Shown piece by piece: positions 15,841 to 60,981 of a DNA stretch of 64,000 nucleotides. Every line of letters starts with the position of its first letter. The first letter of the stretch is position 1. The translations under genes and the position numbers were made by a program. The notes below the pieces were generated by a model. That model worked only from the letters and a program-made list of their open reading frames with translations, was not told the DNA's origin and did no database searches. Source of the stretch: Bactericera cockerelli (Eukaryota; Arthropoda; Insecta; Hemiptera; Triozidae); assembly GCA_024516035.1 (NCBI GenBank), contig CM044961.1, positions 8,167,537 through 8,231,536 on the forward strand. Direction: 5' to 3'.

Positions 15841-16254
15841 TTCTAATGTTTTTTTTTTTTAAAACCAAATACAATCAACTGGTCACAATCGTTTTAAAAT
15901 GAGGTTGGTTGTGATAATTGGTGCTCATACCTATTTAATCTTAAAATCCATTAACATTATTTCATTAATAATCAACTAGTGTTTTAACCTTGTATTGAAA
16001 AATTAGTAATGAACTCGTTAAAAAACGGACAGCTCGGTTTCGTGGTTTTGTTTATAATACAATTTTAATTATATTATGTACCTACGTACATGGTAGGTAG
16101 ATGGAAATTCGATCTTGGCAAAATAAAGAGGGAAATGAAAGTGCCGAGTATTATTGTATGTTCCGAAAGTGCCTCTTACTATGGCTCTAAGAAATGTTGA
16201 CCCATATATTTGCCTAACTTCGAGTTGCTAAACATGGTGTCATTTCAGCATAAT

Positions 16255-16301
16255 CAGTAGATATAAACAGAAGAAGTGAGAAATTATACTAGATATACAA
16301 T
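16255..16301 (+). repeat. fragment related to the hammerhead-ribozyme element
   Basis: cagtagatataaacagaag, aagtgagaaattatactag and atatacaat resemble the ends of the 144-bp unit at 58712-58855. The ribozyme core is absent. Confidence 0.45.
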
Positions 16302-16529
16302 TAATAATTATAAATTAATAAGCAAGCATTATATTCATGGAATATACCCTGAAAATTTCAGCTCGATTGGACAAAACATGCAACTTATATCATGTTACAA
16401 ACATAGGTTACATGTTACAAATTAGATTGTGACAAATCAATGTTGATCGAGAACTATAGGTACTCACTTCGTTCGAAATTAAACGGTCATAGGAGGTTGA
16501 CTCAAACTACCAACTACTGTTTTTTTTTT

Positions 16530-26098: not shown

Positions 26099-29000
26099 CT
26101 AGACAAATCTAGATGGTTTACGAATACATCTCCCTCTTCTAGTAACCTGATTAATAGTAGGTTTTATCTCACCAATTTTATCATTGGGATCTTTATCATT
26201 GCCTGTCAATACATCAGATACAGGCTCATTGGATGACACAGACACATCAGCTATATTGTCACTATGCACAAACATAATCATTCTTTGAACAACTGGGTGC
26301 TCACTTGGCAGTACAATTGGGTAACAAAAATCATTGTCATCCTCACGGTTTGATATCTTGGTTTTGATTCGGATGACATCATTTTGTTCAAATGTCATTA
26401 GGTGTTTCAATTTACTCATATCTTTGAAACTTTCTTTTTGAACCAACATGAATACTTTTTGTTCAGCCAAAATAATCTCACTAGCTGACAAGTTTTGTAA
26501 TGAGCGTTCTTCTCTTTTCAGCTTACAATTCTTAATGAAACGCATCATCCAAGCAATCATTCTTATAATCTTTGGATACTGAGAAAAGTATTCATACCAT
26601 TTCAGGGGTTCCTCTTCTTGGACCAACATAGATGACACAACTGTCCGTTTTCTCTCCTTCAAAATCTCAGCTTCGTCATATGTAACTGCAGGTTGAGGCC
26701 ATTGTTCTGGATTTTCTTTCAGCCACACAGGACCCTCCCACCATCTACACTGGAGAAGCTTCTTAACACTGCTTCCTCTTGATGGAAGATCTGCTGGATT
26801 TAAATTTCCAGGCACATGACGCCACTCACAACCTTGTGTCAAAGAGCGAATTTCTTTTACTCTATTCATGACGTAAACGTCCCATGGATCATCACGATGA
26901 ATCCATGCAAGTACAGTTGAGGCATCTGTCCAAAAGTATGTCTTCATATCAGACAACTTATAATCATTAATCACAGTCTGGTACAATCTAGCGGCAATTG
27001 AAGCGGCTAGCAGTTCAAGTCTTGGAATTGTCATGTCCTTGCCTGCTTTGGGCACAGGAGCTACTTTAGCTTTAGAAGCTAACAGTCTCAGTGTCACTCC
27101 ATTTTTGTGTTCTATACGTAAGAATACACAGCTAGCATAGGAAAACTTACATGCATCTGAAAACACATGAATTTGACACTCAGCATCCTCAAGCTCACAG
27201 TCAGCAATCCATCTTGGTATACATACTTCAGCAAGAAGTGGGACTTCACTCAGCCATTGATAAAACTTATGCTTTGTGTCCTCTGCAACTTCTTCATTCC
27301 ATGATAGGTTCTGACGCCATGTCTCTTGTACAAGTAGCTTAGGTATGAGTGCTACACTGCTGACAATTCCAATAGGATCGAACAATCTGTGGGCGGCACT
27401 CAATAACACTTTCTTAGTCACAATATCAAATTTCATTGACAACAGGCGGTCAAGGTTAATAGTCAAAGTGTCATTAAATTTGTTCCACAAAAGTCCTAAT
27501 ACATTGGTAGGCTTATCATGATCATCTCCAGTTTGTTCCCAGCCTCTGAGGTCAAAACCTCTTTCCATCATGACGTTAGATGCCATATGGATAAAATCTT
27601 TGGCTTGGACTTCACTATGAACACTAACTAGGCAGTTGTCAACATAAAAACTGTCACTCAATATTTCTACTTCAGGTAGTGACCAATCAAGTTTACCTTC
27701 TTGACATAATTTCATCGTATCTTCTAAATGAAGCTTTAGGCATGACTCTAATAGGAATGGACTGGATGACACTCCAAATACTACTCGACAATGTCGGTAG
27801 GTCTTAATCTGTCCATTGGATTGCCATAAGAACCGTAAGTAATCTCTATCTTTAGGATTAACACTTATCTGTAGAAATGCCTTGGCGATATCACCAGAAA
27901 TACCAATTTTATTCTTTCTGAACTTAGCAAGTGCTGCTGGTATTTTCTCAATAAGGTTAGGACCTTTCTCTAAGCAATCATTTAATGAATGACTTCCTAC
28001 CTCCTTAGAAGAAGCGTCAAATACAGGTCTTACCGGAGTCGTAGATCCTTCCTTAATCACATGACGGTGAGGTAAGTAATGTGCAGGGTTGCCAATTTCA
28101 CTTATAGGGACTTCTTCAATAATGCCCTGTTGCTCCCACCCTGACAATACTTCTTCATAGGAATCTAGATATCCATCAGCTTTTAGCTTCTTCACGGTAG
28201 ACTGTAGTCTTAACTTGGCAACACTGTAGTTGGATGACAAAGGAGGGTGATCATTAGTAAATGGTAAACGAATTTCAAAATGATTATCTTTATTCAATTG
28301 CACAGTAGATCTAAAATGTTCTTCTGTGGCACGGTCAATTTCTGTCCTAAGCTTACGTTCCATGGGGTCAGTAATACCCAACACATCAAGACTCCAAAGA
28401 TCTGATATTTTAGCATCTTTCAATAGCAGGGAAGTAACAATTGATGCTACTGATTTATCTCTCTTGGGGGCACCTGGCACTTTCCCTGATAAAGTCCACC
28501 CAAGTTTGGTCTCCATGGCAACAAGACCATTATTCAAATCAAAATTGTCACCTGTCCACAACTTGGCGGCAACATCTGAACCAACCAGTACCTCTATTTC
28601 ACTTTGGTTATTGACATCACTAAGGGTAATGGATTTTGCCTTAAGCTGTCCAATCCAAGGACCAGTAGGTACAGAGGGTATATCAGCACAAATTTTATCC
28701 TGTTCTAATACTTCAAAATCACAGGTAAATGACTTGTCAATGTTAGCTAATCTAAGCTGATAAATATTGTGCTCTGCTGCCTCTGTTACTTTGCCTCCAA
28801 ATAAGCCATGCTGTATACGTTCCTTGCCTTTAGGATTATAACCCATCTCTCTTGCTAGACTACTTAACATGTATGACCGTTGTGAACCGGTGTCAAATAA
28901 TAATCTAGTCTCTTTTGTTCTGCCATTCTTACCACACACTTTTATGACTAATGTCTGCATCAGAACATTACTATAAGTGGCAGAGGTCATAGAGGCATTT

Positions 29001-30289
29001 TGAGAAGGCTTAAACTTAATATTATCTGTACCTGTTTCCTGTGAGTTACTCAAACCTGGGTCACACAACAGCATGTAATGGCCACGTCCACACTTATTAC
29101 ATTTTGGCCGGCGTCTACATCGGGCAGCATGATGACCAGTCCTGAGGCATGAAAAACACACTTTTTTCTTCTTCACTATGTCGATACGTGCTTGAAGTGG
29201 CATATCTACTTTACAATCTTGGGGCTTGTGCTCAGCCTGACAAAAAATACATTCTATATTAACATGTGTATTAAACAATCCTGAAGCAGTGGGTGTGTAA
29301 CTACTTTTCTCTTGGCTGGGTTTCATATGGGGTTTCACATTGCCTTTAGGGCTAGGGGTACTTAAACCAAACCCTGACTTAACTAACGCCAACTTTTGAG
29401 AACTTTCAACCTCACGTTTAAGGAATGTCAATAGACTCTCTAGTTTGTCAGTAGAACTGCTATCATCACGGGTAACCCTCTCCCACATCTGCATGATGTC
29501 CTCAGGTAAACATGAGGAAACAAGGGGCATAAGAATAGGACCGCAATTTTTAGTGGTCACACCAAGTGATTCTAGGTTACGGATATGACACAACAACTTA
29601 TCATGCAGAGATACTATATCCAACTTTTGCTTACTATTCTCTAGTACCAACTTTAACATTTCTCTGATATAGTATTCTGTCAACAGGTCCTCTCGACCAT
29701 ACCTCTGTTTCAAAGTTTTGACAACTTTGTCATACATTTCTCCAGTGGCAGGGTAACTGTCTACAAGCTGCCTTGCTGGAGAATCAGCAGTCATGGACAT
29801 AGTTAGATAACCTAACTTATCACTAGGATTCATTTTGGGATCTGAATCTATCTTCTCAAACTGAGACCAGAACGGTAACCAGTCACTCAAATTCCCACTA
29901 AATTCTCTTAACTTCAATGTAGGCAATTTGCACTGATAATTGGTTGTTTCACATTTAACACTATCATAATGACTTGACTCACCTTCATTCTTAACCTGTA
30001 CTTTAGACTCAACTAAACTTTTACCTTGGTAGTACAGTACAGTGTACCTGTCAATGTCATCATGTTCTTTCTCCAAGTCTGCCTCTGACACTTCAGGGTC
30101 TTTAGACATAATACTAAAGATAGTATTATCCATAACAGTCAGTTCTTCAAATCTGAGCCTCATGCACTCGAGTAGTCCAGACATCTTGCTTGAATCTGCT
30201 TCATCTTCAATCTTCTTGAAACACTTAGTAAGGGACGTTCTAATGAGACCTCTTCCCTTCTTCAGACTGCTTAAGTCAGACTCACCCAT
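26099..30289 (-). CDS. Bel/Pao Gag-Pol polyprotein, lacking the integrase core
   Basis: A single 1396-residue ORF. Gag (DUF1759-like) covers roughly residues 120-300, with FSGNLSDWLPFW near 130-141. CCHC knuckles are at C378-C381-H386-C391 and C397-C400-H404-C409. The aspartic protease has LLFDTGS with Asp466. Reverse transcriptase has SGDIAKAF (Asp800) and FYVDN (Asp884). The Pao A17 region follows (HRLFDPIG near 968-974). RNase H has FSDA (Asp1045), RLELLAA and WTDAS (Asp1122). The integrase zinc finger begins (H331 to H342 of the 1300s, LPSEHPV..MFVH) but breaks off near residue 1342. The frame jumps to a C-terminal tail ending RGRCIRKPSRFV, so the rest of the HHCC finger and the whole DDE core are gone without a frameshift. 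Start at the first ATG after the leader (30289). It can probably make particles and cDNA but needs integrase in trans. Confidence 0.93.
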   Translation of the reverse strand: MGESDLSSLKKGRGLIRTSLTKCFKKIEDEADSSKMSGLLECMRLRFEELTVMDNTIFSIMSKDPEVSEADLEKEHDDIDRYTVLYYQGKSLVESKVQVKNEGESSHYDSVKCETTNYQCKLPTLKLREFSGNLSDWLPFWSQFEKIDSDPKMNPSDKLGYLTMSMTADSPARQLVDSYPATGEMYDKVVKTLKQRYGREDLLTEYYIREMLKLVLENSKQKLDIVSLHDKLLCHIRNLESLGVTTKNCGPILMPLVSSCLPEDIMQMWERVTRDDSSSTDKLESLLTFLKREVESSQKLALVKSGFGLSTPSPKGNVKPHMKPSQEKSSYTPTASGLFNTHVNIECIFCQAEHKPQDCKVDMPLQARIDIVKKKKVCFSCLRTGHHAARCRRRPKCNKCGRGHYMLLCDPGLSNSQETGTDNIKFKPSQNASMTSATYSNVLMQTLVIKVCGKNGRTKETRLLFDTGSQRSYMLSSLAREMGYNPKGKERIQHGLFGGKVTEAAEHNIYQLRLANIDKSFTCDFEVLEQDKICADIPSVPTGPWIGQLKAKSITLSDVNNQSEIEVLVGSDVAAKLWTGDNFDLNNGLVAMETKLGWTLSGKVPGAPKRDKSVASIVTSLLLKDAKISDLWSLDVLGITDPMERKLRTEIDRATEEHFRSTVQLNKDNHFEIRLPFTNDHPPLSSNYSVAKLRLQSTVKKLKADGYLDSYEEVLSGWEQQGIIEEVPISEIGNPAHYLPHRHVIKEGSTTPVRPVFDASSKEVGSHSLNDCLEKGPNLIEKIPAALAKFRKNKIGISGDIAKAFLQISVNPKDRDYLRFLWQSNGQIKTYRHCRVVFGVSSSPFLLESCLKLHLEDTMKLCQEGKLDWSLPEVEILSDSFYVDNCLVSVHSEVQAKDFIHMASNVMMERGFDLRGWEQTGDDHDKPTNVLGLLWNKFNDTLTINLDRLLSMKFDIVTKKVLLSAAHRLFDPIGIVSSVALIPKLLVQETWRQNLSWNEEVAEDTKHKFYQWLSEVPLLAEVCIPRWIADCELEDAECQIHVFSDACKFSYASCVFLRIEHKNGVTLRLLASKAKVAPVPKAGKDMTIPRLELLAASIAARLYQTVINDYKLSDMKTYFWTDASTVLAWIHRDDPWDVYVMNRVKEIRSLTQGCEWRHVPGNLNPADLPSRGSSVKKLLQCRWWEGPVWLKENPEQWPQPAVTYDEAEILKERKRTVVSSMLVQEEEPLKWYEYFSQYPKIIRMIAWMMRFIKNCKLKREERSLQNLSASEIILAEQKVFMLVQKESFKDMSKLKHLMTFEQNDVIRIKTKISNREDDNDFCYPIVLPSEHPVVQRMIMFVHSDNIADVSVSSNEPVSDVLTGNDKDPNDKIGEIKPTINQVTRRGRCIRKPSRFV

Positions 30290-30342
30290 GGCTTATTCTA
30301 GACCTCACTCGACGCGAAAACTTCTCAAAGACAGCTAAACTG

Positions 30343-31795: not shown

Positions 31796-32487
31796 ACATG
31801 TTTTCATTTATTTCTTTCTCTCCCTCTCCTATTGCTTTCCATATCTCCTCCCTATTCTTCTCATCCATGCCACGTGTGAACTTTTACCTCCTTTTTATCT
31901 CCCTCATTTCCAAGTTTTATCCTCCTTATCCTTCTCAGTTAAGCCACGTGCTAACTCACTAAGGATTCCCCAAGGATTATTACAATACACATTCAATTAA
32001 GTTTTATTTACATTAAATAGAAAAGGGGGTTAAACAAAAAGAAGGGGGGCTACACAATTTTACAAAATATACAACAAACAAAAATTATCTATCTTATGGC
32101 TTTACAACACATCGCAAAGTGAGAATGTAATAAGCTTGATCAGGAGATCTGATGGCAGTGATTGTCTGATCGCCAAAATTATCAGTACTTTAGCCGCATG
32201 TCAATGCGTTGCCCAGGGTGAACCACGAGGAGGCGTACTAACATTTCACCCCAATATATAATACAACGTATATGTATACAATATCACTGATCCAAGGCAA
32301 ACATGTGCAAAAGTCAAGGATCGCTGCAATTGGGTCACAATACATGTGCTAGAAGTGTTCAGGAATGAACTCCTTAACAATCTAAATTATGGAGTTATAG
32401 GTCCAATACTATAACGAGGCACACTCGGCCGCCAGTTGTCGAGGCTAACTGGACCAGAATAGCTCTTTCCTGGGCTGTTTGGAGCTC
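31796..32487. other. no recognised gene
   Basis: Pyrimidine-rich to about 31940, then more balanced sequence (32000-32480) that looks like unique or old repeat DNA. No ORF of note. Confidence 0.4.
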
Positions 32488-32932
32488 ATCATCATCATCA
32501 TAGGGTGGCGTCATCGTGAACGATGGCAGCCACACAGTGGAGGAATGACTCAGCACTTCTACCACTATCTTTACAAGGAGGCTAATTGACGAGGGCCCCC
32601 AGAATCAAACCAATGCTGGTCTACTCCCTGTTTTTTTTTTTTTTTTTTTTTTTTAAGTGGGGTTTAACGTCGCTTTCAACTGCCATGGTCATATCACGAC
32701 GGGGGTTTTACCCTCCATTCGCAGGAAACTCACAAACCTGCTACTCACATTGACCTCACCCAGCGTGAGTGGGGCCGGGAAAAGCCAGCGTCACGAGAAT
32801 TAGAATTTGAATGGTCACCCATCCAAGTCTTAACCTCGCTGGATGTCGCTTAACTTCGGTGTTCTGAAGGGAACCGGTGTATTCAACATGCCATCGACGC
32901 TGGCCTACTCCCTGTTTATAGTCAACCAACCA
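32488..32932 (-). repeat. SINE-like family D copy, interrupted by a 5S SINE
   Basis: Its complement matches 39782-39942: (atc)n tail, ataggGtggcgtcatcgtga, cagtggaggaatgact, aaggaggct, gggcccccagaa, then tctactccctgtttatagtc. The 5S-derived SINE sits in the ctactccctg segment, which is duplicated on both sides. Confidence 0.75.
32631..32904 (-). repeat. 5S rRNA-derived SINE (SINE3-type) with poly(A) tail
   Basis: On the minus strand the first 95 bases resemble 5S rRNA: a catgttgaatacaccggttc block, caccgaagttaagcgacatc and ggttaagacttggatgggtg. A body with gtgagtggggccgggaa, cgtgatatgacc and a poly(A) tail (T-run 32631-32655 on the plus strand) follows. The target duplication ctactccctg (32621-32630 and 32905-32914) flanks it. 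5S-headed retroposons are the SINE3 class; the internal Pol III promoter is the 5S type. Confidence 0.85.
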
Positions 32933-43850: not shown

Positions 43851-43967
43851 AAACTCAATCCAATTTTCAAAAATACTTCAATGTTCATCTTGTTGTAACA
43901 CCATCAGGGGTGGCTTGGAATGAACCTGTGAATATAAACTGGAATGAACGTGAACATAGTTGTCCCG

Positions 43968-44170
43968 GTCCCGGTAGCTCAGTGGTAAAGGCGGCACTCT
44001 GTGAATCCAGAGGTCGCGGGTTCGAAACCCAGCCGGGACATGACAAGTTTTCCTCCCATTTGGGATTTTTACCACATAATAATATGTCTTGGGCTTACTG
44101 CTGGAATAATGAGACTTTAATAGTCTTAATCAGGCAGTATAAATAAGGCGATATTATTATTATTATTATA
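43968..44170 (+). repeat. SINE family C, best-preserved copy (tRNA-like head)
   Basis: Bases 43968-44040 resemble a tRNA: gtcccgg pairs perfectly with ccgggac (7 bp), gctcagtggtaaagg gives an A box, ctctg..cagag an anticodon-like stem, and gcgggttcgaaaccc a canonical B box. The D stem is poor and the anticodon loop is short, so this is a SINE head rather than a gene. The tail holds tttgggatttttaccacata, ataatatgtcttgggcttac and a (tta)n end. Related copies: 22560, 57849 and 58627. Confidence 0.85.
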
Positions 44171-47665: not shown

Positions 47666-48486
47666 CACCATACCCGAGCAGGAAAAATTCTCTAGGCTCA
47701 CTTTCAGTACTGCAGGAATTAATTTATGAGCAATTTAAATTAATGCAAAACATACATTTATGAGGACAGGAAAAACCGCCAAGTAATACAAAGGCCGTAT
47801 TTGTTTTCTCTGTACGCTGTTTTCATTAAAAATATAAACAGGTAATCAGTCACGGCCGGAGAGGAAATATTTGGGGGATGCTGCCACCTAATGGGATGTA
47901 TAAAATCGCGGTCATGGTACCTCAATTTTACCATGCAAATTATGATTATTATGAATTAAAATTTTAAGAATTGGCTAATGATTTCATTGTTTTTTAACTA
48001 AATTTTCAAGAATGAAAACCCTATCTCCAAATTCTTTTTCATCTAGGAGAGCTGCAGCTCCGGCCGCGACTTGTAATAAAGATTCAAGCCATTCCAGTTG
48101 CAATACACACGGACATGGAAACCACAACTATTATTCTGGAAATAATGTTCTTTTGCATTTCTCTACGCAAACTAAATAATTAAAAATCACTTTATTACAA
48201 GAGCTTTTAACATAAAGCAAGAGATATTGCCTTGTTGTCATTTTTATACCTAGTACCTAGTAGCAGTTTACAAAAGAACATCCGAGCAATAAAGTGATAA
48301 TCATTTTTATAGGCAACAACTACTATAGGTAACTACACTTCGTCTCATGGCAGTCTACAATAATGTAAAAAAAAAGTTTGATGTTGAATAAATAGTTAGC
48401 ACCTACCTAACCGTGAAATTTGCTTTAATTTTTCAATTTGAAACAGTTTATCATAAACTTCCTAGTAGGTTAGGTTAGGCCTAGCT
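47666..48486. other. no gene seen
   Basis: Unique-looking AT-rich sequence. Its right edge, 48466-48479, carries a short taggttaggttagg. Confidence 0.4.
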
Positions 48487-50378
48487 TATTGTCTAGTTCT
48501 AGTCTTTTCTCTAGCTCTAGTCTTTTGTCTAGTTCTAGTCTTTTCTCTAGCTCTAGTCTTTTGTCTAGTGCTAGTCTTTTGTCTAGCTCTAGTCTTTTCT
48601 CTAGCTCTAGTCTTTTGTCTAGTTCTAGTCTTTTCTCTAGCTCTAGTCTTTTCTCTAGCTCTAGTCTTTTGTCTAGTTCTAGTCTTTTGTCTAGTTCTAG
48701 TCTTTTCTCTAGCTCTAGTCTTTTGTCTAGTTCTAGTCTTTTGTCTAGTTCTAGTCTTTTCTCTAGCTCTAGTCTTTTGTCTAGTTCTAGTCTTTTCTCT
48801 AGCTCTAGTCTTTTGTCTAGTTCTAGTCTTTTGTCTAGCTCTAGTCTTTTGTCTAGTTCTAGTCTTTTCTCTAGCTCTAGTCTTTTGTCTAGTGCTAGTC
48901 TTTTGTCTAGCTCTAGTCTTTTCTCTAGCTCTAGTCTTTTGTCTAGTTCTAGTCTTTTGTCTAGCTCTAGTCTTTTGTCTAGTTCTAGTCTTTTGTCTAG
49001 CTCTAGTCTTTTGTCTAGTGCTAGTCTTTTGTCTAGCTCTAGTCTTTTCTCTAGCTCTAGTCTTTTGTCTAGTTCTAGTCTTTTGTCTAGCTCTAGTCTT
49101 TTGTCTAGTTCTAGTCTTTTCTCTAGCTCTAGTCTTTTGTCTAGTGCTAGTCTTTTGTCTAGCTCTAGTCTTTTCTCTAGCTCTAGTCTTTTGTCTAGTT
49201 CTAGTCTTTTGTCTAGCTCTAGTCTTTTGTCTAGTTCTAGTCTTTTGTCTAGCTCTAGTCTTTTGTCTAGCTCTAGTCTTTTGTCTAGCTCTAGTCTTTT
49301 GTCTAGTGCTAGTCTTTTGTCTAGCTCTAGTCTTTTCTCTAGCTCTAGTCTTTTGTCTAGTTCTAGTCTTTTGTCTAGCTCTAGTCTTTTGTCTAGTTCT
49401 AGTCTTTTGTCTAGTTCTAGTCTTTTCTCTAGCTCTAGTTTTTTGTCTAGTTCTAGTATTTTCTCTAGCTCTAGTCTTTTGTCTAGTTCTAGTCTTTTCT
49501 CTAGCTCTAGTCTTTTGTCTAGTTCTAGTCTTTTCTCTAGCTCTAGTCTTTTGTCTAGTTCTAGTCTTTTCTCTAGCTCTAGTCTTTTGTCTAGTTCTAG
49601 TCTTTTGTCTAGCTCTAGTCTTTTGTCTAGTTCTAGTCTTTTGTCTAGTTCTAGTCTTTTCTCTAGCTCTAGTTTTTTGTCTAGTTCTAGTCTTTTCTCT
49701 AGCTCTAGTCTTTTGTCTAGTTCTAGTCTTTTGTCTAGCTCTAGTCTTTTGTCTAGTTCTAGTCTTTTGTCTAGCTCTAGTCTTTTGTCTAGTTCTAGTC
49801 TTTTGTCTAGCTCTAGTCTTTTGTCTAGTGCTAGTCTTTTGTCTAGCTCTAGTCTTTTCTCTAGCTCTAGTCTTTTGTCTAGTTCTAGTCTTTTGTCTAG
49901 CTCTAGTCTTTTGTCTAGTTCTAGTCTTTTGTCTAGCTCTAGTCTTTTGTCTAGCTCTAGTCTTTTGTCTGGCTCTAGTCTTTTGTCTACTTCTAGTCTT
50001 TTTTCTAGCTCTAGTCTTTTGTCTAGCTCTATTCTTTTGTCTAGTTCTAGTCTTTTCTCTAGCTCTAGTCTTTTGTCTAGTTCTAGTCTTTTGTCTAGCT
50101 CTAGTCTTTTGTCTAGCTCTAGTCTTTTGTCTGGCTCTAGTCTTTTGTCTACTTCTAGTCTTTTTTCTAGCTCTAGTCTTTTGTCTAGCTCTATTCTTTT
50201 GTCTACTTCTAGTCTTTTTTCTAGCTCTAGTCTTTTGTCTAGCTCTATTCTTTTGTCTAGTTCTATTTTTTTGTCTAGCTATAGTCTTTTGTCTAGCTCT
50301 AGTCTTTTGTCTAGTTCTAGATTTTTGTCTAGCTCTATTCTTTTGTCTAGCTCTAGTCTTTTGTCTAGCTTACTAGCA
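48487..50378. repeat. 18-bp CTAG-rich satellite array, about 105 units
   Basis: The unit is gtctagttctagtctttt, with variants at fixed places (g/c at base 1, t/c/g at base 8, later g-to-a/t changes). Two ctag palindromes occur per unit. Because 18 is a multiple of three, two frames stay open for over 600 codons; these are not proteins. A 'gtgctag' variant recurs at spacings of 126 bp (7 units) and other multiples of 18, showing higher-order duplication. Variants cluster toward the right end (gtctggctc, gtctacttc), where the array decays. Confidence 0.97.
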
Positions 50379-50756: not shown

Positions 50757-51440
50757 CGTGGTGATCAGTCGATTGTTAAGACGCTCCTCTATTTTATAAA
50801 ATTTTAAAGTTAAAAGTGAAAGTAGAACATTCTAGTGTATTTTTTTAGACCTACACAAGTGTCATCTTTGATAGTTCACTGCGAATTGCACGCGAAATTC
50901 GTAAGTTAAACTTATATGAACATTTAAAAATTTATTATTGAAAATTTCTAACCAGAAACAGCCATTGTTGAAATTTAAATTTTTAAAAACAGCTGTGTTT
51001 AGAAACTGATAATCAGTAGAGAATCAGAGATAATTACCTTTAGATAAGGAATTACTGATTACAGTTCATTAACAGCTGATAAGACCACACTACCATTTCG
51101 AACACTTCTGAACTCAAGACCTAGAGAGCAGCACTTTTTGGTGGATTGGTTCAACCGTTTTCCAATTTCTTTGAAACCGGTAGCTACCGCTGGAACTTCA
51201 AACTTTCCAGTGTACCCAACTTTTCAATAAGTTCTCAGTACCGCCGCTAGATCACTGTACATAGAAAAGATAAACGAGAACTGATAACAACTGGAGGTCA
51301 TCACCTATCAGAGTGACGTCATCACCGCAGACGTTTGGAACCGAACTGTGAGGTAGCCCCACTACCTACCTACCTAGCTTCATACCTCTCTGCCTAGCAT
51401 CATACCTGCTACCTAGCTTCATACCTACTACTGTGTTACG

Positions 51441-52388
51441 ATGTCCGGCAGCTGTATTACTTGCACCGAGGATCTTCCTGGTGACGGGGATTATTTACTA
51501 TGCAGCTACTGTAAAGGAGGTCTGCACTGGATATGCGGAGGTTTGAAGGAGTCGTCTTGGCGTTCTATGTCAAATCCAACTAAGGCGAACTGGAAATGTC
51601 CAGTGTGCAGGGCCCCTAAGAGGCAGGGAAACCTACTAACCCAAGAGAGTGGTGACGAGCAGTTGACAATGGCGAACATTCGGAAAACTCTGGACAAGAT
51701 GTTCGGGGAGTTAAGAGGAAGTATGGAGACCAGGTTCACGGAGATAGAGAACAGCTTGGAGTTCAATGGTAAAATGTTAGAAGACCTACAAAAGTCGTTT
51801 AAGGAGACACAGCAGAAGATTATCGTCATGGAGAAAACCCAGGATAAACTCGAGAAACAGAATCAGGAGTTGCAAAAAAAAATAAAAAACCTGGAATGTT
51901 TTGTTCAAGATACCGTGCAAGAAGGAAACAAATGCAAAATAGAAATATCCGGTATTCCACAGTATATTGATTACAAGTCATTCACTGCCCAAGTTTTTGA
52001 GAAAATAAAAGTGAATAATTTTGTGAAACAAGATGAGTACACTATTGAGAAAACAACTATTAAAAAAAAGGATAACGAACCTCAAGTGAAATCTCTTGTG
52101 TTAACACTAAAAAATGAGGAAACCAGAGACAAAGTTTTGGAAACAATCAGAATCAACAAGCCGACCCTCAAATCAGAAGAGTTCAGCTCGCAGCATCCCT
52201 CGACAGTCATTTACATCAATGAGTATCTTTCGCCATACATGAAAAAACTTCTCTATGAAGTGAAAGCTTTAAAAAAGGACAAGAACTTTTCATATGTCTG
52301 GGTGAGAAACGGTAAGATCTTTGTTAAGGTAACAGAGGGGGCAAACCCCATACGGCTGAGGTCCTTGGACGATCTGTCCAAACTATAA
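51441..52388 (+). CDS. ORF1 protein: PHD finger, coiled coil, FP-like domain
   Basis: 315 residues. A complete C4HC3 PHD finger: C5, C8, C21, C24, H29, C32, C53, C56. A long coiled coil covers roughly residues 75-150 (FGELRGSMETRF, QDKLEKQNQELQKKIKNLE). The C-terminal part, about 160-315, contains KIEISGIPQ and ends in FSYVWVRNGKIFVKV then IRLRSLDDLSKL. This resembles the domain shared by baculovirus FP25K-type proteins and insect retrotransposon ORF1s. Expected role is RNA binding and RNP assembly, with trimerisation through the coiled coil. The ATG at 51441 sits just before the PHD finger. The gene is intact and is followed 103 bp later by ORF2. Roles are inferred from family knowledge. Confidence 0.88.
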   Translation: MSGSCITCTEDLPGDGDYLLCSYCKGGLHWICGGLKESSWRSMSNPTKANWKCPVCRAPKRQGNLLTQESGDEQLTMANIRKTLDKMFGELRGSMETRFTEIENSLEFNGKMLEDLQKSFKETQQKIIVMEKTQDKLEKQNQELQKKIKNLECFVQDTVQEGNKCKIEISGIPQYIDYKSFTAQVFEKIKVNNFVKQDEYTIEKTTIKKKDNEPQVKSLVLTLKNEETRDKVLETIRINKPTLKSEEFSSQHPSTVIYINEYLSPYMKKLLYEVKALKKDKNFSYVWVRNGKIFVKVTEGANPIRLRSLDDLSKL

Positions 52389-52491
52389 ATAAAATACTTA
52401 CTATGAATATACTTGTGTAAACTATTTAAATAAATCATGTCGAATAATCCTTATTTATATAAATAAAATAAAAAATATAAAATTTAAATCA

Positions 52492-55383
52492 ATGGAATAT
52501 GATTATTTAGAAGATTGGAAAAACAACTTAAAGAAAAATAATCATTTAACATGCATACATGTAAATATACGAAGCATTAGAAAAAATTGGGACTTATTTT
52601 TATTTGAATTAAAAAATATTTTCCATAAGATTGACTTAATCGTCCTTACAGAGGTAAATGTCCAAGAGGACGAAGCTTCACTTTATAAAATAAGAAATTA
52701 TAATCAGTTGGTCAAAACTCGAATAAATAGAAGAGGCGGAGGAATAATTATTTATTATAGAGATAATTATAGTGTTGATCTCATTGACTATAATTTCGAA
52801 GATTCAGAAAGTCTAAACTTCAAGTTATTAGACAAGAAACTGAAAACCGAATACACAATTTTGGCAGTTTATCGTCCTCCTAATGGAATCATCGCCTCCT
52901 TTCTCCAGGACTTTCAATGGTGGATCAATAATGCGACCAGAAGAACAGATAACATTGTATTAATAGGCGACATAAATATATGTACGTTGAAAAAAAATAA
53001 TATCAGTACTCATTATTTGAACACCCTGTATAGCAATGAGTTTTTACCTACAATAAGAACCATTACACGAGAAGAAATGTTGGCAGGTAAAATAACAGCT
53101 TCGTGTATTGATCATATTAATTTGAAACTTAAAAATAAAAATAAAATTTTCTCGTCAGTCATTAAAACAAAGCTATCTGACCATTACTTTGTCGCATTAC
53201 AAATATATCAGCAAGAAACAATAAGGGCTCAAAATCAAGGTGTCAACAAAAAATACGTCAATATTTTAATAACTTCAAAAATAGACAGGGGAATTTCTCA
53301 GTTCAACTGGGAGGAACTCCAAAATATAAAAGATGAAAAAGATCTTTATAATACTATAACGGGAAAGTTCCAGGAAATATACGAAAAATGTACCATAAAA
53401 AAAGAAAAAAGTTACAAAGACCAGCTCACCCCTTGGGTAAATGAAGAAACAAAAAAAATAATTAGAGAAAAAAATGATGTGTTAAAAAAATGGAGAAACA
53501 ATAAAAATAATGTGATTCTTTATGAAGAATATAAAATAAAAAGAAACCTAGCTACTAATGCTTTGAAAAAGCAAAAACGAATATACACTTTTAAACAGTT
53601 GAAAGATGCTAAAGGTGATATAAAAAAAATCTGGAATATACTGAACTTTTTACTGGACAGAAATTTTCGAGAAGACACGAAAACTCTTTTGTGCAAAAAT
53701 TTCGGAACGACAGAAATCGATAAGCTGGCTAATTCTTTCAACTGTAATTTTAAACAGCAAATAAAGGACCTGAAACAATTAAATAATGGACCAAAATTTC
53801 AGCTTAATATGAAGCCCTATGTACAACAAAAATCCCTCAGTACATTGTATATTAAACCCCCACGAAAAGAGGATGTCTATAAAATAATTAAAAATTTAAG
53901 AAATACAGGTCCTGGTTTAGATAAAGTAAGGCCTAGGGACGTTAAAATAAACGCGATTACTCTTACTCCTATAATTACGACACTGCTGGGCCAGATTTTA
54001 GTCAATAAAAATATTCCTAAGTCGCTAAAAATTTCGTGTATTACACCGCTATATAAGAAAGGTGAGGTCCATAATTTTGGCAATTATCGTCCAGTGGGTT
54101 CCATGTGTTTCATCGAAAAAATTCTCGAAAAATATATAGAAGAGCGCACAAAGAAATATTTAGATGAAAATAAAATTATTGCCAGCTTTCAGTATGGATT
54201 TCAGCCGAAAAAAAGCACCCTGACCCTGCTCGAGGACTTTGCGGAAATCATAAACTCGGCCCTGGATCGGCGAATGTTTGTGGTCATACTCTGGCTGGAC
54301 CTGACACGGGCCTTCGAAACGCTAGACCACTCCACCATACTCAAGAAATTTAAAGAAATAGGGTTGGAAAATAAAATATTCGCAAATTATTTCACAGATA
54401 GAACGCAAGTCACCAAGATCGGAGAATTCACAAGCGATAAAATAAATATCGAGGACGGTCTGGTAACCGGAGCAATAAACAGTCCTGGGTGGTACAACAT
54501 CTACACCTACGACATCCAGTACTTAGATCTGAAGAGTGAGATGAAAATGTTTGCCGACGATTCCTGCATTGTTTCGGTGCACAAAAATTTAGAAGTAGCC
54601 GTTAAGACAGCTCAAAATGACTTCATTAGCCTGCAGAAGTATTTCTACAACAACGAGATTTATATCAACCAAACAAAAACAGAAGCTATGGTCATGGGGG
54701 TATCTAAGGGAATGTCAGAAATCCAACATCACAAAATAAAATGTCATGATCGACCTTGTTTATATGCAGAACAGTACAAAAGTTATTGCCAATGTCCTTT
54801 TATTGAATACTCAGAATCATGTAAATATTTAGGGATTAACATAGATAGTTGTTTTAAAATGAAAACACATGTTAATACTTTAACTAAAAAACTGAGAATT
54901 TTGAATTATAGGTTACGTAAGGGTAATGCTAGTGTTTTACCGTTACATGCTAAAAAGCTGATTTATTTTTCACTCGTAGAATGTTTATTGAGATACGGGG
55001 CAACAATTTATTCCTACTCTCCGGCCTATGTTATAGATCCTTTGATTAGCATACAGAAGAAAATCCTTAACTATCTATTTTGGAAGGAACAAGAACTTGA
55101 GGTTCGGTCAAAATTCTTACACCCGTACCAACTTTCAAAGCTAATATTAGTACTTAATTATTTCCAAAAAGAAGAATATAAAAAGACAAAGATAACAAAA
55201 TACGACTTGAGAAGGCCAAATCTTGTAACTACAGTAGGGCACACAAAATATGGAGATAGAGTGCGTTCATCATTATTACCCAAGCTTTTCACTGATTATT
55301 GTAGAACTTTCCTAGAAGAAACCAATATGTCAATTGTTAAAAGAAAAATGTTAGCAATTTTACAAGAAGAACAGATAGAATAA
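52492..55383 (+). CDS. ORF2 protein: APE endonuclease and reverse transcriptase
   Basis: 963 residues. Endonuclease motifs in order: HVNIRS (Asn25), LTEVN (Glu54), YRPPNG (127-132), LIGDIN (Asp160, Asn162), SCIDHI (Asp207, His208) and LSDHY (229-232). The RT follows from about residue 490: NYRPVGSMCFIEKILEKYI, YGFQPKKSTLTLLEDF, WLDLTRAFETLDH (Asp603) and MFADDSC (FADD 687-690). The usual 'PQGS' motif is replaced by DGLVTGAINSPGWYNIY, keeping G and SP but lacking Gln. A Cys/His cluster follows the palm (CHDRP..CQC). Its function is target nicking and target-primed reverse transcription. No stop or frameshift interrupts it, so it could be active unless the altered motif is harmful. The start is the first ATG in frame after ORF1. 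Confidence 0.9.
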   Translation: MEYDYLEDWKNNLKKNNHLTCIHVNIRSIRKNWDLFLFELKNIFHKIDLIVLTEVNVQEDEASLYKIRNYNQLVKTRINRRGGGIIIYYRDNYSVDLIDYNFEDSESLNFKLLDKKLKTEYTILAVYRPPNGIIASFLQDFQWWINNATRRTDNIVLIGDINICTLKKNNISTHYLNTLYSNEFLPTIRTITREEMLAGKITASCIDHINLKLKNKNKIFSSVIKTKLSDHYFVALQIYQQETIRAQNQGVNKKYVNILITSKIDRGISQFNWEELQNIKDEKDLYNTITGKFQEIYEKCTIKKEKSYKDQLTPWVNEETKKIIREKNDVLKKWRNNKNNVILYEEYKIKRNLATNALKKQKRIYTFKQLKDAKGDIKKIWNILNFLLDRNFREDTKTLLCKNFGTTEIDKLANSFNCNFKQQIKDLKQLNNGPKFQLNMKPYVQQKSLSTLYIKPPRKEDVYKIIKNLRNTGPGLDKVRPRDVKINAITLTPIITTLLGQILVNKNIPKSLKISCITPLYKKGEVHNFGNYRPVGSMCFIEKILEKYIEERTKKYLDENKIIASFQYGFQPKKSTLTLLEDFAEIINSALDRRMFVVILWLDLTRAFETLDHSTILKKFKEIGLENKIFANYFTDRTQVTKIGEFTSDKINIEDGLVTGAINSPGWYNIYTYDIQYLDLKSEMKMFADDSCIVSVHKNLEVAVKTAQNDFISLQKYFYNNEIYINQTKTEAMVMGVSKGMSEIQHHKIKCHDRPCLYAEQYKSYCQCPFIEYSESCKYLGINIDSCFKMKTHVNTLTKKLRILNYRLRKGNASVLPLHAKKLIYFSLVECLLRYGATIYSYSPAYVIDPLISIQKKILNYLFWKEQELEVRSKFLHPYQLSKLILVLNYFQKEEYKKTKITKYDLRRPNLVTTVGHTKYGDRVRSSLLPKLFTDYCRTFLEETNMSIVKRKMLAILQEEQIE

Positions 55384-57848: not shown

Positions 57849-58028
57849 ATCATAGTACTTATTTATACTGCCTCATTAGGACTAATGAGTCTCATTTTTA
57901 TATCAGGTATGCCAAGACGTATTATTCTGTGATCAAACCAAATGGTCGGATAACTTTACTCGTGTGTCGTCTGGATTTCAAACCTGCGACCTCTGGATTA
58001 CCAGACCTACACGCAACCCCTTGACCAT
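57849..58028 (-). repeat. SINE family C, diverged
   Basis: On the minus strand the head (caaatggtcaaggggttgcg, ccagaggtcgcaggtttgaa) and the tail (tattattctg complement, atgagactcattagtcc, tgaggcagtataaata) align with 43968-44150. Confidence 0.6.
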
Positions 58029-58615: not shown

Positions 58616-58704
58616 CAGTGTTATCGGTCCCGGTAGCTTAGTGGTCAAGATTTTGTCGGTCTTGTAATCGCGAGGTCGTGGTTTTGAAACCCAGCCGGGA
58701 CAAG

Positions 58705-58889
58705 TATCAGTATCAGTATAAACAGAAGAGTGAGAAGTTGTACTAGATGTACATGAATATCAGAACATACCTAGACAGCTGTTTCGAGCTTATTTGCTCT
58801 CATCAGCAGGTAATAATTCTGAATATCCATGCCATCATCTAACCTCTCTATTTTAATCAGTATAAACAGAAGAGTGAGAAGTTGTACTT
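58705..58889 (-). mobile_element. retrozyme-like hammerhead element inserted in a SINE
   Basis: The 185-bp insert is flanked by the duplication acaag (58700-58704 and 58890-58894). It holds one complete 144-bp unit starting atcagtataaacagaagag at 58712 and the first 34 bases of a second unit from 58856. The complete unit contains a hammerhead ribozyme on the minus strand. Tandem hammerhead-bearing units without coding capacity are the hallmark of animal retrozymes and of Penelope-type terminal repeats. No reverse transcriptase is present, so it must use enzymes in trans. Confidence 0.7.
58755..58828 (-). ncRNA. type I hammerhead ribozyme
   Basis: Reading the minus strand: helix I 5' strand ggatattcagaattattacc then tg; core CUGAUGA (58806-58800); helix II gagc-aaataa-gctc (58799-58786); GAAA (58785-58782); helix III acagctgt, a self-complementary 8-mer; then C (58774) and the expected cleavage before 58773; helix I 3' strand taggtatgttctgatattc. 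Helix I pairs as acctg/taggt, cagaa/ttctg and gatat-type outer pairs, with an internal loop as in natural type I ribozymes. All conserved core positions are present. The very short palindromic helix III suggests cleavage mainly as a dimer, as in retrozymes. Confidence 0.8.
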
Positions 58890-58977
58890 ACAAGTCTGTT
58901 ATCCTTACATTAGGGATTTTGACCACATAATAATACATGTAAGTCTTGGTCTTACATTTTTCATTTAAAATAATTAT

Positions 58978-60340: not shown

Positions 60341-60763
60341 AATGAAGCAAAGGTAATATTTTAATGAGAAGTTATAGTTGTGCCACACTACACAACAAGG
60401 TGTCTCCCTAGCTAAGCAGTAGTGATGATAATTAATAATAATATGCATTATGTATTAAACAAGAGCCTCTTGACAATTTTCGTGTGTAACTCAGCTCTAC
60501 TCAGGGCCTTTGCTGAGTAGAGAACAACAAAATTACATAAACCATAATAATTATGATGATATTCAATCTATTTGTCAGAATAAACATAAAAGTGAAACGT
60601 CCAGAAATATGAAAAAATTGAAATCGGAGCAAAAATAGTTTTTATACAAAAACGAACACAATATTTCCGATTTCTAATATTAGAAATTTTTATCCTCTCG
60701 GTAGTGAGTTCGTGGAAGTATTTTACCTTTGAAATAATATTTGATACTCTCCAGAAAAAAAAG
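60341..60763. other. no gene seen
   Basis: AT-rich, no recognised structure. Confidence 0.4.
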
Positions 60764-60897
60764 AGAAATTTGACTTGATGTACATGAATATCAGTATTAT
60801 GAGTACATATCTGGTTATCTGTTTCGAGATTGTATTTTACTCTCATCAGCAGGTAATAGTTCTGAATATCCATAACATTAGCTAACCTCCTTATTTT
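60764..60897 (-). repeat. decayed copy of the hammerhead element
   Basis: It matches 58737-58855 (gatgtacatgaatatcag, ctgtttcgag, ctctcatcagcaggtaat, ttctgaatatcca). Core CUGAUGA and GAAAC remain, but helix II is reduced to gag/ctc and the helix III/cleavage region reads acagataacc, so cleavage is unlikely. Confidence 0.65.
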
Positions 60898-60981
60898 TTT
60901 CAATAGAGGTACTTACATACATTGTCATAAAAACCTTCTTAATTCCTAATCCTGTAATATTAAATACCATCAGGCATCCGA

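Follow-up and report, generated by a model that had tools for sequence, protein, structure and literature searches.

Copy ends of a hammerhead retrozyme family in Bactericera cockerelli suggest a circular RNA template

An insertion with a hammerhead ribozyme inside a SINE

The window (the whole 64,000-nucleotide stretch of Bactericera cockerelli DNA that was analysed) carries a short element with a hammerhead ribozyme, inserted in a tRNA-type SINE, as well as a second, older copy and a related fragment. The features concerned, in window coordinates, are the following.

58705..58888, minus strand: retrozyme-like element, 184 bp or 1.28 units of 144 nt, bounded by comparison with other copies
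58712..58855, minus strand: complete 144-nt unit (35% GC), from the spacing of the direct repeat
58856..58888, minus strand: start of a second lap, the first 33 bp of the unit, 100% identical to 58712-58744
58705..58710, minus strand: extra TATCAG (CTGATA in RNA sense), a tail repeat of which other copies carry one, two or more
58753..58823, minus strand: type I hammerhead ribozyme with intact core, from Rfam HH9 (30.5 bits, E 1.2e-5) and the fold
58776..58781, minus strand: helix III hexamer CAGCUG (C-AGCU-G), a palindromic AGCU loop closed by a single pair
58773..58774, minus strand: site of predicted self-cleavage, following the C (58774) of GUC, from hammerhead anatomy
58627..58702, plus strand: tRNA-like head, belonging to the host SINE and not to the element (sub-threshold Rfam tRNA match, 18.3 bits, E 0.49)
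58700..58704, no strand: left ACAAG, more likely derived from ACATG of the SINE itself by a single T-to-A change
58890..58894, no strand: right ACAAG, part of the SINE body
60763..60905, minus strand: second, older copy, one unit at 76%, with the cut triplet GUC changed to AAC
16251..16306, minus strand: short related fragment inside a longer repeat, with similar flanks at the sampled locus L076:6352-6385

The RNA sense of the element is the minus strand, with the 3' end at 58705 and the 5' end at 58888. An insertion of 185 bp had been described in the first-pass annotation; the insertion is present, and consists of the 184-bp element proper (58705-58888) plus one T at 58889, which lies outside the unit sequence. 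An exact direct repeat of 33 bp at a spacing of 144 bp defines the 144-nt unit, so that the tandem arrangement described earlier amounts to 1.28 units with one ribozyme. No terminal repeat was found in the element beyond this 33-bp lap overlap, and no ORF of at least 150 amino acids overlaps the 184 bp. The internal unit junction reads TTTTAATCAG, compared with TATCAG(TATCAG) at the element's end; the tail therefore seems to have been added where copying starts, and TATCAG at 58705-58710 may mark the point at which reverse transcription starts and slips.

All elements of a type I hammerhead core are present on the minus strand, as initially reported: CUGAUGA at 58806-58800, GAAA at 58785-58782, a helix II of GAGC/GCUC closed by the loop AAAUAA, a long, interrupted helix I, and a helix III formed by the hexamer CAGCUG, whose palindromic character was likewise confirmed. 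The predicted cut between 58774 and 58773 agrees with hammerhead anatomy. The covariance-model check was divided, with no hammerhead match at Rfam gathering thresholds, whereas a search of a 601-base stretch with an E-value threshold matched Hammerhead_HH9 (RF02275) at 30.5 bits, below its gathering score of 52. The ribozyme region folded with a z-score of -4.27, and the 144-nt unit as a closed circle folded at -40.3 kcal/mol, a stability reached by none of 200 shuffles. In the window a loose hammerhead descriptor matched once; of 300 dinucleotide-shuffled windows, 8 had one match or more, which makes the motif alone about a 1-in-40 event. Since the same core recurs 2025 times in the genome (control 0), the ribozyme belongs to a repeat family. 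Judged by its letters, the CAGCUG helix III would be fit for pairing two ribozymes into a dimeric hammerhead.

The interruption of a SINE was borne out, in that the flanks, once joined, align across other copies of this SINE, two of which lie in the window at 43966-44098 and 57919-58011. The element is not itself a tRNA-derived SINE by these data, having no tRNA-like promoter head; the tRNA-like match sits in the host SINE, and ARAGORN reported no tRNA genes. The two ACAAG words had been taken for a 5-bp target duplication, a claim that is unsupported, as the 5-bp shorter site that it requires was seen in none of the five other SINE copies spanning the site. Four of the five have GGGACATG and, after it, ACAAG, TCAAG or AAAAG, so that both words have a counterpart there; the fifth copy has diverged further and has a greater length. 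The pair was therefore rejected as a target-site duplication and is probably not a product of the insertion. The window SINE has about 4 extra bases (TCTG) after the right ACAAG, with no counterpart in the other copies; it is thus somewhat rearranged there, and the five-copy comparison is imperfect.

Among 119 insertions, 26 had some spanning match, many of them same-insertion pairs or weak, and few were readable (the window, L095, L122 and L161). L161 is a second insertion of the element in the same SINE, a few bases away, with no duplication and two filler bases; the L095 insertion looks blunt, and that at L122 has a 3-bp duplication. Across 74 loci (two flank-sharing pairs included, loci reduced to the 3'-terminal 17-mer left out), flank matches of at least 6 nt occurred at 5 loci, compared with 0.95 expected for re-paired flanks, part of a weak family-wide excess of short matches that also shows at 4 nt or more (given below with the LINE alternative). 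Insertion of the element seems to leave short target duplications or none.

Several other features lie in the window. An HDV-like ribozyme at 32183-32252 (minus strand; 45.5 bits with Rfam HDV-F-prausnitzii, whose gathering score is 44) lies at the start of a family of dispersed repeats, and its 5' cut falls at query position 39; among the best 40 of 710 candidates, which were scored, 38 of the 39 other matches begin at query positions 28-41. HDV-like ribozymes are placed in the same way at LINE 5' ends. A 5S rRNA-like match was found at 32783-32904 (minus strand, 65 bits), another at L078:617-756 (minus strand, 37.9 bits, just under the cut-off of 38), and a similar 5S-like start after the element copy in L123, which suggests a 5S-derived repeat. 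An open frame of 1397 amino acids at 26099-30292 (minus strand) belongs to a BEL/Pao-type retrotransposon (Peptidase_A17, DUF1759, RVT_1), and a LINE at 51417-55383 (plus strand), which has an (AATTC)n tail, contains two long open frames (323 and 996 amino acids). For the window LINE's ORF, the initial 500 residues are nearest to a protein of Diaphorina citri (61% identity over 95%), with further protein matches in the psyllid Cyamophila willieti. At 48481-50370, a 36-bp tandem repeat of about 52 copies leaves several frames open on both strands.

The genomic family, its 3' ends and a candidate helper

Searches of the 565-Mb assembly (1032 contigs) returned 2025 hammerheads with the same core pattern including the CAGCUG hexamer (1018 + 1007; reversed-pattern control 0) and 1777 occurrences of the exact 3'-terminal 17-mer (910 + 867; control 0). 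At some loci two or three ribozymes follow each other 144 bp apart. A search with the 185-bp query, in which the best 40 of the 1149 candidates were scored, gave at least 62 matches; the majority reached 95% or higher along most of the query, and copies at 95-97% identity cover element positions 1-184. The ribozyme core is kept, with CAGCTGTC, in 18 of the 37 sampled independent copies that span it. Longer sampled loci hold 1.2-2.5 units, copy lengths reaching about 2.5 units. An alignment was made of 82 distinct sequences out of 96 ribozyme copies; these are young, near-neutral copies, from which no covariation claim is drawn. A general hammerhead pattern gave 4004 matches compared with 200 for its control, and bacterial and viral collections gave none, as expected for animal sequence.

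Within the window, the older copy at 60763..60905 is probably inactive, to judge by its altered cut triplet. The fragment at 16251 was considered as the trace of a partner LINE, a reading rejected in view of its position in a longer repeat with shared flanks; most simply, it is an old nested copy. At locus L019 (G000:C9:7306000-7311500), 12 pieces of the element are clustered, 11 in the same orientation and several spaced 412-414 bp apart, and the element appears to have been amplified there within a larger tandem array. A further hammerhead-like match, CTGATGAGTTCAAATAAGAACGAAACGATCGTC, at G000:C1:6591097-6591129, differs in the palindrome of its helix III (CGATCG) and perhaps represents a second retrozyme or Penelope-like element (PLE) family.

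The copies share a defined 3' end. In 12 of 12 ribozyme-anchored copies, taken from the list of 2025 pattern matches and excluding loci already sampled, the RNA 3' end lies 59-64 nt past the cut, and in most cases repeats (ACTGAT or TACTGA, for example) come next. The best-hit loci, a sample biased toward long copies, likewise have the RNA 3' end at a constant position in the unit and a variable 5' end, with a main piece of 175-337 bp. Many dispersed copies with fixed 3' and variable 5' ends support the original view of a small, non-coding, retrozyme-like mobile element.

No ORF for a reverse transcriptase with a GIY-YIG domain is present in the 184-bp element; both domains occur in a separate family in the same genome. 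A GIY-YIG search gave 25 matches above the cut-off, and the loci inspected belong to a young Penelope-like family with ORFs of 837-838 amino acids (one tested, with RVT_1 and GIY-YIG), in units of about 3.55-3.6 kb forming direct and inverted arrays, neighbouring units in L073 being 99.9% identical. The non-coding part of this PLE contains a hammerhead-like motif, TTCA-CUGACGA-U-GCC/GGC-GAAA-U-GGCC-A-UC-UGAA, in which a single pair closes a palindromic loop, and the core of the motif occurs 168 times in the genome. Three PLE stretches (L073, L075 and L078) gave no hammerhead match with Rfam at E values up to 1, and in the minimum-energy fold of the 65-nt motif helix II is present and helix I absent, so that the PLE ribozyme and its presumed cut are read from the core. 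Minimal hammerhead variants of PLEs, without helix III or tertiary contacts, have been described in a review (PMC7761336).

Relative to this presumed cut, the 3' ends of 20 PLE copies (roughly the first 45 of 100 listed, minus close pairs and arrays; L178 and L179 share flanks) fall at 60-66 nt in seven copies and at 129-141 nt in seven, the other six lying at 31, 47, 71, 74, 82 and 121 nt. Five PLE copies at array ends terminate 63-65 nt past the presumed cut, and two others near 127 nt or beyond. The element's own 3' distance, 62 nt, thus falls at the first PLE mode, a match with a chance of very roughly 1 in 10 by itself (144 positions, two PLE modes). When the last 25 nt before the 3' ends of element and PLE were compared, 15 were identical, a value equalled by 8 of 2000 shuffles for an anchor picked after the ends had been seen, and by 11 to 47 of 2000 for other lengths. 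A global alignment of the two cut-to-end stretches was reached by 58 of 1000 shuffles, and no overall sequence similarity was found between the element and the PLE of the same genome. As an observation on the PLE itself, 12 of the 20 solitary copies (L174-L193, two sharing flanks) are truncated 32-55 nt upstream of the presumed cut, in a search whose pattern itself requires 32 nt upstream of that cut, and the short solitary copies contain little beyond the hammerhead-like motif and the start region.

A lizard PLE studied in vitro begins reverse transcription at an internal position of its RNA, 111-118 bases into the ORF, and its ribozyme cuts 26 bases into the ORF (PMC11167929), which by subtraction places the start 85-92 nt past the ribozyme cut. 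Internal initiation of this kind has been called unique to PLEs, and a lizard PLE with a dead hammerhead inserts in vitro as well as the wild type (PMC11167929). A retrozyme model that runs through circular RNA, with PLEs as candidate helpers, was already set out in PMC7229834. On the present evidence the PLE is the leading, though unproven, source of the retrozyme's enzyme, and mobilisation by it is given a little under even odds; the reading is weakened by the failure of Rfam to recognise the PLE motif as a hammerhead.

A different donor would be a LINE with an (ACTGAT)n 3' tail, mobilising a retrozyme copied from the same circular template in the way that LINEs mobilise SINEs. The hexanucleotide tail repeats at the element's 3' ends speak for it, such tails being commoner among LINEs and none having been seen at the PLE ends inspected; so do the fixed 3' and variable 5' ends, a pattern typical of target-primed LINE copies, and the occurrence of LINEs in the window. 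The two LINEs of the window, however, end in (AATTC)n and in an A-rich stretch, with no (ACTGAT)n LINE there, target duplications are scarce (17 of 74 loci with at least 4 nt compared with 9.4 expected for re-paired flanks, none with 8 nt or more), and the point of initiation is internal to the RNA, at the distance seen for the PLE. A LINE donor is accordingly rated as a serious but unlikely alternative to the PLE.

The 5' ends of copies and the form of the template

The form of the template was approached through the 5' ends of copies. A set of 93 loci of any length was collected by means of the exact 3' 17-mer within the initial 36 Mb of a single contig; leaving out 17 that share either flank gave 76 independent loci (79 if both flanks must match). 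Four loci of length 17, consisting of the 17-mer only, were counted but excluded from the rates, and L168, which ran off its stretch, was counted at 341. Measured from the 3' end, 30 of the 76 5' ends lie at 17-63 nt, 9 at 64-138, 34 at 139-207, 1 at 208-282 and 2 beyond 282. The corresponding stop rates per nucleotide were 0.0092 (18-63), 0.0029 (64-138) and 0.0289 (139-207), that is, an approximately tenfold rise after one lap. With no other break assumed, the best single break in the stop rate was at 148, compared with a unit of 144. The Akaike criterion (AIC) was 811.5 with a constant rate and 815.3 when breaks were placed at the ribozyme cuts alone; a break after one lap lowered it to 772.1, and the two kinds of break combined lowered it to 760.3. 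An earlier pass with 79 loci gave the same picture, and in 20000 constant-rate simulations of 79 loci at most 25 ends fell in 139-207, compared with 35 observed. Second laps are not always cut short, as 12 of the 37 best-hit loci measured more than 207 nt.

A linear unit released by the ribozyme allows at most 62-63 nt from the start point, and a linear dimer runs out at 207. Neither linear form gives a rise right after 144, whereas a closed circle does, which suggests that circular RNA is the template for genomic copies. Circular templates have been proposed (PMC7229834, PMC7761336) to yield cDNA of more than one unit, in line with the present ends. A hard 5'-end limit at the ribozyme cut (63) was also considered, as the first 60 loci included none at 64-97; the next 33 weakened it, and by itself it brought no improvement in the model comparison.

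It is improbable, by the same measurements, that the template was instead a linear, partly cut multimer whose 5' ends reflect ribozyme cuts at 63 and 207. Such a multimer would account for first-lap ends lying mostly at or below 63 (30 of 76) and second-lap ends mostly below 207 (34 of 76), but the ends do not pile up at either position: those at 58-63 amount to 4 of 76 loci, and those of the second lap lie mostly at 149-183. Breaks at the cuts only fit no better than a constant rate, in contrast to the lap break, and the best break of 148 is again not a cut position.

A further alternative is a degenerate PLE fragment, a solo pLTR with a minimal hammerhead and no independent existence. The layout is shared, with a weak type I hammerhead, a palindromic helix III and a 3' end about 62-65 nt past the cut. 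Against this, the element has no sequence similarity to the genome's PLE, its period is 144 nt compared with about 3.6 kb, and its ribozyme copies are about twelve times as numerous as those of the PLE motif, so that this origin is held to be very improbable; a possible variant would derive the fragment from another, unseen PLE family. A satellite repeat without mobility, which local arrays (L019, and the runs of two or three ribozymes at 144 bp) might recall, can be dismissed, since copies with a fixed end sit at dozens of unrelated sites and unoccupied copies of some targets were seen.

A proposed cycle and comparison with known systems

Taken together, the element is best read as a metazoan non-LTR retrozyme with an RNA-circle cycle and a PLE as the likeliest donor of the enzyme (probability roughly 0.8). 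The family with its copy number, the fixed 3' end, the lap-linked 5' ends and the PLE with its ends are observed; cleavage, circularisation and the enzyme donor are steps that we infer. In the cycle proposed, tandem genomic copies would be transcribed, and weak type I hammerheads, pairing through the palindromic CAGCUG helix III, would cut the RNA into 144-nt units, which a host ligase would close into circles. Using the 3'-OH of cut target DNA as primer, a borrowed reverse transcriptase would begin copying at a fixed internal point about 62 nt past the ribozyme cut, and slippage there would give the TATCAG tail. The enzyme would then round the circle and mostly halt within about 60 nt after the first lap, where its own product must be displaced, the obstacle being its own RNA-DNA hybrid. 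The cDNA would be joined with little or no target duplication. The enzyme may come from the young PLE with the hammerhead-like motif, the 3' end of which lies at almost the same distance from its presumed cut.

A more general proposition, put forward tentatively, is that animal retrozymes relate to PLEs as SINEs do to LINEs, that the PLE enzyme starts about 62 nt past the cut in both RNAs, and that a closed-circle template gives cDNA counted in laps. If true, the genome preserves a record of circular RNA serving directly as a retrotransposition template. Whether the RNA circle itself templates new genomic copies, and which autonomous element provides the enzyme, become testable questions. A review of 2020 states that the repeats of animal retrozymes show no conserved motif pointing to a helper (PMC7761336); in the present family the 3' end is defined, the 5' ends are tied to the lap, and the PLE in the same genome has its start at a similar distance. 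The kind of element is already known, and what is new is the evidence on mechanism from copy ends. The same approach, in which copy ends are mapped against the cut position and the length of the unit, is applicable to any genome with retrozymes and PLEs.

The comparison with plant LTR retrozymes, drawn from PMC7229834, shows a general likeness, these being non-autonomous, hammerhead-bearing and thought to pass through circular RNA. They carry type III ribozymes in their LTRs, form circles of 600-800 nt and leave 4-bp duplications (PMC7229834), whereas the present element has type I topology and no LTRs. With PLEs, as described in PMC11167929, PMC3846280 and PMC7761336, it shares a hammerhead near an internal start of reverse transcription (PMC11167929) and partial tandems, and it differs from them in having no ORF, reverse transcriptase, GIY-YIG domain or similarity to the genome's PLE. 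Some PLE copies lack target duplications and others have ones of 8-10 bp, according to PMC3846280.

By the features tested, the element is a metazoan non-LTR retrozyme. As characterised in PMC7229834, such retrozymes are non-coding, without LTR, primer-binding site or polypurine tract, and their RNA cleaves itself and builds up as monomers, both linear and circular; insects in general are named there among the carriers of retrozyme-like repeats, and the open-licence papers listed in a literature search included none on a psyllid or hemipteran retrozyme. The element agrees with the same account (PMC7229834) in its type I hammerhead, its short unit without a long ORF, its thousands of copies, its one to several units per locus, a PLE in the same genome, and a GC content of 35% where values below 50% are given. 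It differs in that its unit of 144 nt is just under the 150-450 bp of the repeats and the approximately 170-400 nt of the RNAs, in that its sampled loci mostly hold 1-2.5 units rather than long arrays, and in having a defined 3' terminus with a TATCAG tail, no supported target duplication at the window site (those of metazoan retrozymes, when present, exceed 4 bp) and a psyllid-type host (published values from PMC7229834). In its helix III the element matches the description of the axolotl HHR_Amex1, in which this helix is also one pair with a palindromic tetraloop and which is far more active as a dimer (PMC7229834); the axolotl HHR_Amex1 and newt satellite ribozyme differ in having units of about 330 nt compared with 144.
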